Origin: a virus
Virus record (IMG/VR): IMGVR_UViG_3300021137_000127
Coordinates: 1-20,052 of that record
Strand: one strand, 5' to 3'
DNA length: 20,052 nucleotides
Below the pieces are notes generated by a model, which saw nothing but the letters and a program-made list of their open reading frames with translations, was not told the DNA's origin and searched no databases. Positions 5,437 to 16,324 of the stretch are shown here, piece by piece (position 1 is the first letter of the stretch; the number at the start of each line of letters is the position of its first letter). Position numbers and translations under genes: made by a program.

Positions 5437-5868
5437 ATGAGCAACCCATACCCATCCAAATTCAAACAAGCCGATCTTGCCCGACGCGAGATCCAGTTGA
5501 TCCACGTCGCCCGACAGAAAGTGAGCATGGATGAGGATACCTATCGCGCGCTGCTGCATGACCGTTTCGGCGTGGCCAGCAGCAAGGATATGGACTGGAA
5601 ACAGCGTAAAGAGCTGCTCGATCACTTCAAGACGCTGGGTTTCAAATCAACGGCGTCAACGCGCCCTGCCCCGGCCAAGGATAAAGTCGCGCAGGTCAGT
5701 AAAATCCGCGCGCTGCTGATCGCCCTGGACAACAAGCCAGATGCCTACGCCGACGGCATGTCGAAGCACATGTTCAAGATTGATCGCTTCGAGTGGTGTA
5801 CTGGCGCGCAGCTGGGAAAGATCATCGCTGCGCTAGAATACGCAAAAAATAAGGCAGAAACAAAATGA
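5437..5868 (+). CDS. gemA: GemA / Mu gp16-family protein (DUF1018)
   Basis: 143 residues. Recognised by the family pattern: ARREIQLIHVARQKVSMDED, YRALLHDRFGV, SSKDM, RKELLDHFKTLGF, then SKIRALLIALDN and a helical end with GAQLGKIIAALE. Mu GemA modulates host gene expression and DNA topology early in infection; this family is also called BcepMu gp16-like. It is followed by mor with an ATGA overlap, the usual order in Mu relatives. Confidence 0.9.
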   Translation: MSNPYPSKFKQADLARREIQLIHVARQKVSMDEDTYRALLHDRFGVASSKDMDWKQRKELLDHFKTLGFKSTASTRPAPAKDKVAQVSKIRALLIALDNKPDAYADGMSKHMFKIDRFEWCTGAQLGKIIAALEYAKNKAETK

Positions 5869-6260
5869 ATTTGAACGAATCTGATTTACACCTGTTGCCG
5901 CCCTCTATGCAATGGCTGGCCAAGGCCATCGGCCTGACCGCCGCGATGAAGCTGGTTAAAATGCACGGCGGCGGAACGCCGATTTATATCCCAATGACGG
6001 CGCAGTTGGATCATCGCTTGTTATATCTGATCGGTATGGAAGCCTTTGCCGCGCTGGTATCTGAATACGGCGGCGATTATCTGGAAATCGCCCGCTGTGA
6101 AAAAGCAGCTCGGGTGCTGATTTATCGTGAAATTCGCCGCGAATATGCCGAAGGGACGCCACAAAACACCCTGGCGCTGAAATATGAATTCACTACCCGG
6201 CACATCCGTGACATTCTGAATAGCGAAATTGAAGATGACATGCAGGTCGGGTTGTTTTAA
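5865..6260 (+). CDS. mor: Mor-type middle/late transcription activator
   Basis: 131 residues (Mu Mor is 129). The N-terminal part is the dimerisation region (PPSMQWLAKAIGLTAAMKLV, then GGGTPIYIPM). The C-terminal helix-turn-helix reads NTLALKYEFTTRHIRDIL at about 100-117. Mor/C proteins bind dyads near -43 and recruit RNA polymerase to promoters with poor -35 boxes. It is the only Mor/C-family protein in the window, so it is the best candidate to drive both late promoters found at 6861 and 15156. Confidence 0.94.
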   Translation: MNLNESDLHLLPPSMQWLAKAIGLTAAMKLVKMHGGGTPIYIPMTAQLDHRLLYLIGMEAFAALVSEYGGDYLEIARCEKAARVLIYREIRREYAEGTPQNTLALKYEFTTRHIRDILNSEIEDDMQVGLF

Positions 6261-6831: not shown

Positions 6832-6856
6832 AAGCCCCGCCTAGTGCGGGGTTTTT
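6832..6856 (+). terminator. Strong intrinsic terminator
   Basis: CCCCGC (6835-6840), five-base loop CTAGT, GCGGGG (6846-6851), extended by AAG/TTT, then a run of five T (6852-6856). It closes the early operon plus lipoprotein gene and sits immediately upstream of the first late-promoter box, insulating late from early transcription. Confidence 0.9.
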
Positions 6857-6860
6857 CGTT

Positions 6861-6917
6861 TACCCCGGAACCCCTTCTGCCTTATCCCGCCTCGCGCGCA
6901 CGCGTACATTACGCGTC
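6861..6917 (+). promoter_or_regulatory. Predicted activator-dependent late promoter (Plys position)
   Basis: Upstream box TACCCCGGAACCCC (6861-6874), then CTTA at 6881-6884 and a -10-like TACATT (6905-6910). The -35 position is poor (TTATCC, 6882-6887, 17-base spacer), as in Mor/C-activated promoters. A half dyad CGGA-N6-TCTG (6866-6879) is centred near -45 if transcription starts at 6918. The same box, spacing and -10 offset recur before gene I at 15156. The predicted start falls on or next to the ATG at 6918. Confidence 0.7.
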
Positions 6918-7127
6918 ATGGAAACAACCAAATTCTATGACCTGAATCCCGGCGACCGCTTTGTCGATCAGGATGACCGCGTCTGTACAAAGCTCACCAG
7001 CACCACGGCACGTCTGCATATCGCCCATCCGCCCAAGGAGTTCGGGCGCCGCATTGCTGCGATCGGCGCAGGTACGTTGGTTCGATTTCTTCCCATTATT
7101 CCAGCCAAATTCAAAGGAAATCCATGA
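6918..7127 (+). CDS. Small first late protein, 69 residues
   Basis: An unrecognised basic protein with a short beta-rich pattern (DLNPGDRFVDQDD, RVCTKL, RLHIAHPP), possibly a small barrel. No Shine-Dalgarno precedes the ATG, and the predicted transcription start coincides with it, so translation may be leaderless. Its end overlaps the endolysin start by four bases. It has no similarity to Mor/C, although it lies where Mu has the C-lys junction. Confidence 0.72.
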   Translation: METTKFYDLNPGDRFVDQDDRVCTKLTSTTARLHIAHPPKEFGRRIAAIGAGTLVRFLPIIPAKFKGNP

Positions 7128-7573
7128 ACCTATCCCCACATTTCACGCTGGAAGAACTGACGCATTCGCAGCAAGCGGTACGCGCCAGAATAGATAACAC
7201 GCCGAATACACCGCAACGTGCTTGTCTGGAACTCATCGCTAACCTATTGGAGGACGTGCGCCAGTTGCTCGGCAACCCCATTCAGATCAGCAGTGGCTTC
7301 CGCTGTACCAAGCTCAATACCCTGATAGGCGGCGCAAAAAATAGCCAGCATGTGCTGGGACTGGCAGTAGATTTCATCTGTCCTGGCTACGGCACGCCCA
7401 AAGAGATTTGCCAGACATTACTGGCCTCCGGTCTGAAGTTCGACCAGATGATCTGCGAAGGCACCTGGGTGCATCTGTCGCTGGATGTTGCAGGTCGGCC
7501 GCTGCGCAATCAGGTATTGACCGCTGTGTTTGAACCGGGTCGTAAAACTCGCTATCTGGAGGGGTTGGTATGA
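7124..7573 (+). CDS. Endolysin, M15-family zinc peptidase
   Basis: 149 residues. The peptidase M15 (D-Ala-D-Ala carboxypeptidase-like) signature is clear: SSGFRC (56-61), SQHVLGLAVD (74-83) with zinc ligands His76 and Asp83, and WVHLS with His117. It would cut peptidoglycan peptides at lysis. There is no signal peptide, so release by a holin is expected; the next gene encodes a small membrane protein. Mu gene lys occupies this place but is a different enzyme type. Confidence 0.93.
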   Translation: MNLSPHFTLEELTHSQQAVRARIDNTPNTPQRACLELIANLLEDVRQLLGNPIQISSGFRCTKLNTLIGGAKNSQHVLGLAVDFICPGYGTPKEICQTLLASGLKFDQMICEGTWVHLSLDVAGRPLRNQVLTAVFEPGRKTRYLEGLV

Positions 7574-15155: not shown

Positions 15156-15211
15156 TACCCCGGAACCCCATCCGTCTTAACACCCCGCTTCGTGCCGCTC
15201 AAAATGCGGTC
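15156..15211 (+). promoter_or_regulatory. Predicted activator-dependent late promoter (PI position)
   Basis: Second copy of the late-promoter layout: TACCCCGGAACCCC (15156-15169) identical to 6861-6874, CTTA at the same offset (15176-15179), and -10-like CAAAAT (15200-15205) exactly 44 bases from the box start, as in the first copy. The -35 position reads TTAACA (15177-15182). A full dyad CGGA-N6-TCCG (15161-15174) sits near -45. The first 24 bases match the other copy at 21 positions. Confidence 0.75.
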
Positions 15212-16324
15212 ATGAAAACGAATAAACCCATCCAGATATTCAAGCCCGGCAAGCACACCGCGATGAGTGGTACTGCGTTGTCATTTTCCGAAACTGACTT
15301 GTCGGCAACCGCTGCCGCCTACGATCCGGCCAAGCACGAAGCGCCGCTTGTATGTGGCCACCCCGAGCATGACGATCCAGCTTACGGCTGGGTCGGCGCG
15401 CTGAGTTTTGCCGATGGCGCACTCGAAGCGAACCCCACCCAGGTGGATGCCGCATTCGCCGAGATGGTAGGCAAAGGTTCGTTCAAGAAAATCTCTGCCT
15501 CCTTTTACGCCCCTGATTCCCCCAGCAATCCTGTCCCTGGTGTGTATTACCTGCGCCACGTTGGTTTTCTCGGTGCGATGCCGCCCAGCGTGAAGGGATT
15601 ACGCAATCCCTCATTTGCAGATGCTGAGCAAGGCATCGTCGAGTTTGCTGAATGGGACGACGTAGATAACGCGGGTCTGTGGCGCAGCATGCGCGACTGG
15701 ATCCTCGGTAAGTTCGGTCAGGCCGATGCCGATACGGCTGTCCCTGGTTACACCGTTAAAAATCTTGAGCAATCCGCCCAGGATGAATTGAAGAAATCAC
15801 AAACCGCCGATGTACCCACACCGGCATTTATCGAGAAAGGAAGCATCGCTGTGACCCCTGAAGAAAAAGCCGCACTGGAGGCAGAAAACGCCCAGATGAA
15901 GAAACAATTGGCCGATGCAGCTGCCCGCGATAAAGCCAGTAAGGCTGCCGCGCGTCACGCAGAAAATTCCAGCTTTGCAGAAGGTCTGGCGAAGGCTGGC
16001 ACGCTACTCCCTGCGCATAAAGATGTGATCGTCGCCTCTCTGGATCAATTAGGCGCGGGTGAACAAGTGGTTGAGTTCGGTGATGGCGATGCCAAAAAGC
16101 CGTTTATCGATGCATTTAAAGCCATGTTGACCAGCATGCCCAAGTTGGTGAGCTTCGGCGAATCCGCCGGTGCTGGTAAAGCATCACAAGGCACAGTCGA
16201 TTTTGCGGCACCTGTCGGATATGCCGTAGACGGCGAGCGTCTGGAGCTGCACCACAAGGCGCTGGCTCACCAGGCGCAACACAAAGTGACTTACGGCGAA
16301 GCACTGTCTGCCGTCAGCGTTTAG
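15212..16324 (+). CDS. I: Head maturation protease I
   Basis: 370 residues from ATG 15212. The frame stays open upstream to 15065, but that would start inside the promoter region, and homologues begin KPIQIFKPGKHTAMSG. The protease part covers about 1-190: ALSFSETDL, AYDPAKHEAPLVCGHPEHDD, PAYGWVG, KGSFKKISASFYAPD, HVGFLGAMPPSVKGL. The C-terminal 157 residues are also made as the separate scaffold Z. No ribosome site precedes the ATG and the predicted transcription start is next to it, suggesting leaderless translation. Confidence 0.94.
   Translation: MKTNKPIQIFKPGKHTAMSGTALSFSETDLSATAAAYDPAKHEAPLVCGHPEHDDPAYGWVGALSFADGALEANPTQVDAAFAEMVGKGSFKKISASFYAPDSPSNPVPGVYYLRHVGFLGAMPPSVKGLRNPSFADAEQGIVEFAEWDDVDNAGLWRSMRDWILGKFGQADADTAVPGYTVKNLEQSAQDELKKSQTADVPTPAFIEKGSIAVTPEEKAALEAENAQMKKQLADAAARDKASKAAARHAENSSFAEGLAKAGTLLPAHKDVIVASLDQLGAGEQVVEFGDGDAKKPFIDAFKAMLTSMPKLVSFGESAGAGKASQGTVDFAAPVGYAVDGERLELHHKALAHQAQHKVTYGEALSAVSV
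15851..16324 (+). CDS. Z: Scaffold protein Z, in-frame internal start within I
   Basis: GTG 15851 is in frame with the protease and has AGGAAG (15838-15843) seven bases upstream, an unusually good site inside a gene. The product would be 157 residues starting TPEEKAALEAENAQMKKQL after the initiator, a coiled coil typical of scaffolds. In Mu, gene Z starts in frame inside I and encodes the scaffold. The shared C-terminus lets the protease join the core and cleave it. Confidence 0.72.
   Translation: MTPEEKAALEAENAQMKKQLADAAARDKASKAAARHAENSSFAEGLAKAGTLLPAHKDVIVASLDQLGAGEQVVEFGDGDAKKPFIDAFKAMLTSMPKLVSFGESAGAGKASQGTVDFAAPVGYAVDGERLELHHKALAHQAQHKVTYGEALSAVSV

Follow-up and report, generated by a model that had tools for sequence, protein, structure and literature searches.

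The promoter in front of the head maturation protease gene of this transposable phage appears to be nested in a hairpin, so that one short stretch of DNA would act both as an activator-dependent promoter and as a translational lock against read-through. We give this reading a probability of about 0.62, with activator binding, transcription start sites and silencing of read-through RNA being inferred. The repeated activator box, the positions of its copies, the promoter spacing, the absence of Shine-Dalgarno sequences, the covarying hairpin and the match with the start sites deduced for phage Mu are established at the level of sequence.

Activator boxes in the window and in related phages

The window, i.e. 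the whole stretch of 20,052 nucleotides that was analysed (positions 1 to 20,052 of IMG/VR record IMGVR_UViG_3300021137_000127), represents a Mu-type transposable phage with genes for a Mu-type transposase, a Mor/C-family activator, an endolysin, spanin-like proteins, the terminase large subunit, the protease (I) and the major head protein. The features relevant for the analysis are the following:

5865..6260, plus strand: Mor/C-family activator gene, likely reader of the box (phrog_836, 2.8e-29; PF08765)
6832..6854, plus strand: intrinsic terminator just upstream of the Plys box
6861..6884, plus strand: activator box, Plys copy, with one dyad pair broken (TCTG)
6900..6916, plus strand: predicted hairpin ACGCGTA-CAT-TACGCGT around the Plys -10, 7 bp, ending one base before ATG 6918
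6905..6910, plus strand: putative -10 element TACATT of the Plys copy (from sequence)
6918..7127, plus strand: first gene behind Plys, 69 aa, no Shine-Dalgarno
7124..7573, plus strand: endolysin gene of the lysis cassette (phrog_894, 3.3e-35)
15156..15179, plus strand: activator box, PI copy, half-sites 15161-15164 and 15171-15174 (from sequence, kept in relatives)
15177..15182, plus strand: -35-like hexamer TTAACA (TTAACA-17-CAAAAT, 9/12)
15189..15198, plus strand: left arm of the hairpin, TTCGTGCCGC, upstream of the predicted transcription start (RNA fold)
15200..15205, plus strand: putative -10 element CAAAAT in the hairpin loop, A/T positions conserved across phages
15206..15216, plus strand: right arm of the hairpin, GCGG-T-CATGAA, covering the ATG (RNA fold)
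15212, plus strand: A of the ATG, probable start of a leaderless transcript, predicted from the position of the -10 without transcript data
15212..16324, plus strand: head maturation protease gene of the Mu I type (phrog_976, 6.7e-129), no Shine-Dalgarno upstream

The product of the activator gene scored 43.3 bits with the Pfam Mor family (PF08765; cut-off 24.9), and a profile search of solved structures with this protein as query gave no match. No family was found for the 69-aa product of the first gene behind Plys. One box follows the activator gene and the terminator and precedes the lysis genes, and the other one lies directly in front of the protease gene; in Mu, Plys and PI occupy the corresponding positions (annotation of AF083977).

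The two boxes, TACCCCGGAACCCCATCCGTCTTA (15156-15179) and TACCCCGGAACCCCTTCTGCCTTA (6861-6884), differ at box positions 15, 18 and 20, and recomputation returned the 21 identities in 24 bases given by the first-pass annotation. Its equal offset of 44 nt from box start to the -10 candidates CAAAAT and TACATT also held, as did the nearly equal distances from box start to ATG (+56 and +57, respectively). The complete dyad CGGA-N6-TCCG that it had reported at 15156 is present, and is in fact larger than described, namely TA-N3-CGGA-N6-TCCG-N3-TA over all 24 bp. If the A of the ATG is taken as +1, the box CGGA-ACCCCA-TCCG is centred at 15167.5, i.e. -44.5, and has the same layout as in Mu, where the site bound by a Mor dimer consists of two 5-bp inverted repeats on either side of a G/C-rich 6-nt spacer, with its centre at -43.5 (PMC4390567; PMC4287176). 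The full box pattern with up to 3 mismatches had exactly these two matches in the window and none in 100 dinucleotide shuffles of it, and a 14-mer with 2 mismatches recovered only the same two sites, compared to 0 in the reversed control. An independent scan for sigma-70-like sites returned the TTAACA-17-CAAAAT promoter at 15177-15205, in which the box runs into the -35-like hexamer exactly 17 bp before CAAAAT. The -35-like hexamer, the absent leader and the hairpin around the -10 had not been mentioned in the first-pass annotation.

Since a plain DNA search for relatives gave only one weak match among annotated phages, relatives were gathered via the activator and protease proteins. The boxes are kept in three near relatives. 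The prediction that further copies would be found to the right was borne out in two of these, contigs G001 (30.9 kb) and G002 (38.3 kb), with a third copy at approximately 26.57 kb in both and a fourth, diverged copy at 29.5 kb in G002; in G002, genes for the baseplate hub (phrog_184) and the baseplate wedge (phrog_180) follow the third and fourth boxes. More distant phages have two to four copies each of their own box version, with e.g. CGGA/TCCG, ACCGA/TCGGT, ACTGA/TCAGT or TTAAA-type half-sites. The half-site class tracks the activator class: the activators of CGGA phages are closest to that of the window or that of G006, those of CCGA/CTGA phages are of the G009 type, and those of TTAAA phages are Mu-C-like.

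Random placement of the box in the host genome had been named as a result that would refute a late regulon. In six bacterial genomes with related prophages (approximately 19 Mb), the related box pattern had 20 matches, compared to 0 for the reversed control, and these lay on phage contigs or at phage-type sites wherever this could be judged. All matches in five of the genomes were on the prophage-bearing contig; in the sixth, a fragmented MAG, they occurred at the starts of lys-type and N-type genes on a number of small contigs. One of the 20 matches (L211) is not clearly a promoter. The proposed coordinated Mu-type late regulon is supported by the activator gene, the Mu-like dyad and the copies before lysis, head and baseplate genes, and, as far as sequence can tell, the case is strong that the site at 15156 is the PI member of the late promoter set of a Mu-type phage, activation and binding being inferred.

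Two late regions with unusual arrangements were observed along the way. A Rhodocyclales prophage (L230, G016:C50:77000-84000) has an extra late box at approximately 81.7 kb, between the activator and the lysis cassette, before a separate small operon with ORFs of 180, 142, 150 and 653 aa, the last of which is highly repetitive; these are possibly cargo genes under late control. In G006 (L058), the late cassette is rearranged and the box kept: the endolysin gene is on the minus strand (575-126), a nearly symmetric box TTAAGCCGGAA...TTCCGGCTTAA at approximately 790-820 faces it, and the protease promoter is immediately preceded by the activator gene.

Promoter spacing and translation starts

We compared approximately 130 non-redundant late promoters. 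The PI set among these comprised 102 non-redundant sites chosen solely by protease homology, and some of the extra sites (TTAAAAG group) had been selected requiring an A...T -10. An A and a T four bases apart are the two fixed bases of a -10 element, and 62% of the PI sites had such a pair at -11/-7 or -12/-8 relative to the ATG, versus 6% of control starts. At -1, C was found in 83% of the PI sites and in 89% of the remaining late sites versus 42% of controls, CA being the usual start pair at sigma-70 promoters. A Shine-Dalgarno core was present in 8% of PI and 4% of other late sites versus 41% of controls. Within the window, a Shine-Dalgarno-like sequence precedes most other listed gene starts and is absent at both gene starts behind the boxes (6918 and 15212). 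A -10 element at -12 to -7 would place the RNA start at the A of the ATG. Because the -10 is so near the ATG and no Shine-Dalgarno sequence is found, the late mRNAs of these phages are probably leaderless, although the start sites in the window phage are inferred.

Inverted repeats around the -10 element

Folding of the RNA from 15180-15224 gave a predicted free energy of -13.9 kcal/mol (z -3.71); the 7-nt loop contains the -10, and the AUG is part of the right arm, where its predicted pairing probability is 0.997. The RNA from ATG 15212 onward is predicted to be nearly unstructured (-0.8 kcal/mol). The free energy of the hairpin at the 6861 copy is unexceptional (z -0.55).

The arms vary widely among phages (GCCGCC/GGCGGC, GTTGCC/GGCAAC, GCCTCC/GGAGGC, GCCCTGCA/TGCAGGGC) and also between the copies in one phage (ACGCGTA versus CCGC in the window; CATGCGCGC at N in G002), yet they remain complementary. 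They abut or cover the start codon, and the loop is often exactly the -10 hexamer. A fixed-register covariation table gave modest signals only, because the loop length varies, and a swap test was used in its place, in which the upstream part was exchanged between phages, such that composition was kept and only the pairing was broken. Stems of at least 5 bp were found at 65 of 129 non-redundant sites versus 18.0 expected, and stems of at least 7 bp at 29 of 129 versus 3.6; among the 58 sites less than 50% identical to each other, 7 had such longer stems versus 0.4 expected. The 400 other gene starts of the same phages had no stem excess (27 versus 24.6). The mean folding energy at late sites was approximately 4 kcal/mol lower than in swapped sequences, and equal to these at control starts. 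Stems ran through all three bases of the start codon in 15 of the 71 cases that reached -1 (1.1 expected). Mismatches inside stems were G-T in 18 and A-C in 5 cases (p = 0.016 versus the null share), a lean, based on just 23 mismatches, that would be expected if the structure is formed by RNA of the coding strand. By the strict criterion, a clear stem was absent from about half of the late sites. In many cases the stem ends immediately before the AUG, and mean AUG pairing over the PI sites was not in excess (0.44 versus 0.43 in swapped controls), which speaks against simple hiding of the AUG at every site.

As a separate observation, a long alternating purine-pyrimidine tract (6893-6909), mostly CG, directly precedes the -10 of the Plys copy, and such tracts also occur at lys/N-type promoters of relatives, e.g. 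L014, L148, L178 and L188. Tracts of (CG)4 or longer were present at 11 of the 27 non-PI late promoters, compared to 3 of the 102 PI sites and 2 of 300 controls; they might promote Z-DNA formation, or slipped pairing to right arms with GCGC.

For phage Mu, in which start sites have been mapped, we deduced these from the oligonucleotides in Table 1 of PMC4461284, whose ends were placed 20 nt beyond the start site by design. The deduced starts are at or next to the A of CCATCA for lys and within CTCA for I, and agree to within approximately 2 nt with a start past the 5' arm, which for the window phage is predicted from the position of the -10. In lys, the segment TGATGGCGG, which overlaps the start codon, base-pairs with CTGCCATCA immediately upstream of the deduced start; in I, CTGCTCA base-pairs with TGAGCAG, which overlaps the annotated ribosome binding site. 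For 12 PI and 8 lys sites of Mu relatives, the pairing of the upstream part with leader or start codon beat all 2000 between-phage permutations. Phage B3 was not judgeable, its annotated protease start being CTG.

The design is thus found in two forms across phages, leaderless and with a leader. In the leaderless form, found in most betaproteobacterial phages and in the window, the -10 is in the loop. In the leader form, found in Mu and also in Chromohalobacter phage YPCBV-1 (GGCCTCC...GGAGGCC), transcription begins where the left arm ends, and the right arm overlaps the Shine-Dalgarno sequence or the AUG. The protease leaders of YPCBV-1 (L258) and a Bordetella hinzii prophage (L127) have a true GGAGG Shine-Dalgarno sequence within the right arm, and their left arm, GGCCTCC or GGCTTCC, is located between -10 and start. 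The PI regions of Pseudomonas prophages (L095-L125) combine a TTTAA-N6-TTAAA box and a CAGGCT-type -10 with a leader of approximately 24 nt lacking a clear Shine-Dalgarno sequence; their TGTGCGC...GCGCACA pairing spans the start site, and they are intermediate between Mu and the leaderless form.

Alternative readings and comparison with known systems

We propose that a dimer of the phage's own Mor/C-family activator (5865-6260) would bind the CGGA-N6-TCCG dyad near -44 and let the host sigma-70 RNA polymerase start at the weak promoter TTAACA-17-CAAAAT, probably at the A of the ATG, yielding a leaderless mRNA. The hairpin would be encoded by the DNA from approximately -23 to +5; its loop would contain the -10, and its right arm would include or adjoin the start codon. 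RNA started upstream, i.e. in an earlier operon or by host transcription into the prophage, would contain both arms, fold and leave the gene untranslated, whereas RNA from the late promoter would lack the left arm and be translated; if the late RNA starts at the ATG, only upstream-started RNA could form the hairpin. Two points count against such a lock: start codons without a Shine-Dalgarno sequence would be weak inside a longer RNA anyway, and the terminator upstream of Plys may already stop most read-through.

The alternative that survives best is that these are ordinary C-dependent promoters in which the inverted repeat acts in the DNA, e.g. as a cruciform or melting aid that makes the -10 single-stranded, without any role in RNA. 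A loop that is often exactly the -10 hexamer would suit this, and the long alternating CG tracts before the -10 (11 of 27 lys/N-type copies versus 2 of 300 controls) favour an unusual DNA structure. The surplus of G-T over A-C mismatches (18:5), however, is not predicted by a double-strand structure, stems run over the start codon (15/71), and Mu and the Pseudomonas-type phages keep the pairing across the start site even though their -10 is outside the loop; we therefore regard this alternative as unlikely, albeit not negligible. Somewhat less credible still is a late mRNA whose start lies before the hairpin, which would then serve as a 5' leader element for stability, ribosome standby or processing. 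The RNA-like character of the hairpin and its location directly before the AUG are compatible with such an element, but the dyad would then be centred at approximately -20, unlike that of Mu Pm (-43.5, PMC4390567), the conserved A...T pair and the C at -1 would be left unexplained, and the published Mu start excludes the left arm. An inverted repeat over the -10 also occupies a classical operator position and could be bound by a second dimeric regulator, e.g. a repressor; as the arms differ between copies in one phage while the activator box is constant, we see very little room for this. We consider the 5' leader element and the operator both less likely than the proposed lock. Chance similarity, or a repeat without promoter function, is formally left standing by the lack of direct activity data, but is barely tenable given its absence from shuffles, the same positions in many phages and the confinement of the box to phage sites in complete bacterial genomes.

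Among known systems, the C-activated late promoters Plys, PI and PP of Mu and its Mor-activated middle promoter Pm are closest to the nested promoter proposed here. Shared features are a Mor-family activator gene before the lysis cassette, a dimer-type dyad with a G/C-rich 6-nt spacer near -44 (-43.5 for Mor, PMC4390567), a weak -10, promoters before lys and I, and upstream pairing with leader or start codon at Plys and PI. The window phage differs from Mu by its CGGA/TCCG half-site, the -35-like TTAACA at PI and its probably leaderless transcripts, whereas short leaders with Shine-Dalgarno sequences are annotated in Mu. In addition, the third promoter is before N here and inside N in Mu, and, unlike in Mu, only one Mor/C-type gene was found in the window.

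The silencing of read-through RNA is inferred by analogy with gene e of phage T4. For T4 e, soc, 49 and I-TevI, the translation start is sequestered in a hairpin on long early transcripts, and the late transcripts, which begin downstream of the 5' arm, are translated (PMC3014915). Our sites resemble the gene e type in that a predicted hairpin would hide the start codon in upstream-started RNA, weakly so at the 6861 copy. T4 differs in using gp55 late promoters and leaders with Shine-Dalgarno sequences, compared to the host sigma-70-type promoters with a Mor/C activator and the mostly leaderless transcripts inferred here; moreover, the hairpin design recurs at lysis, head and baseplate operons in the phages studied here. 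Post-transcriptional control of a Mu late gene through its mRNA is itself described for mom (PMC6483171); that control requires the RNA-binding protein Com, whereas here the start at the promoter itself would remove the structure. We found no publication on such a lock in Mu-type phages in searches of an open literature library, which is no proof of absence.

With slightly less confidence than for the window phage, but still leaning in its favour, we suggest that the lock is family-wide in Mu-type phages including Mu, such that only RNAs from activated promoters, mostly leaderless, would be translatable, and lysis and structural genes would stay silent in the prophage and during early read-through. 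Mu late promoters are a textbook system that has so far been studied for the opening of the promoter by C; if our reading is true, the same base pairs also decide whether the RNA is translatable. It would explain how the lysis gene of a prophage stays silent after transposition to a site behind any host promoter, and would define a whole phage family with leaderless late mRNAs while their other genes use Shine-Dalgarno starts. In practical terms, the combination of box, -10 and hairpin at the ATG would provide a rule for recognising late operons and correct start codons in these phages.
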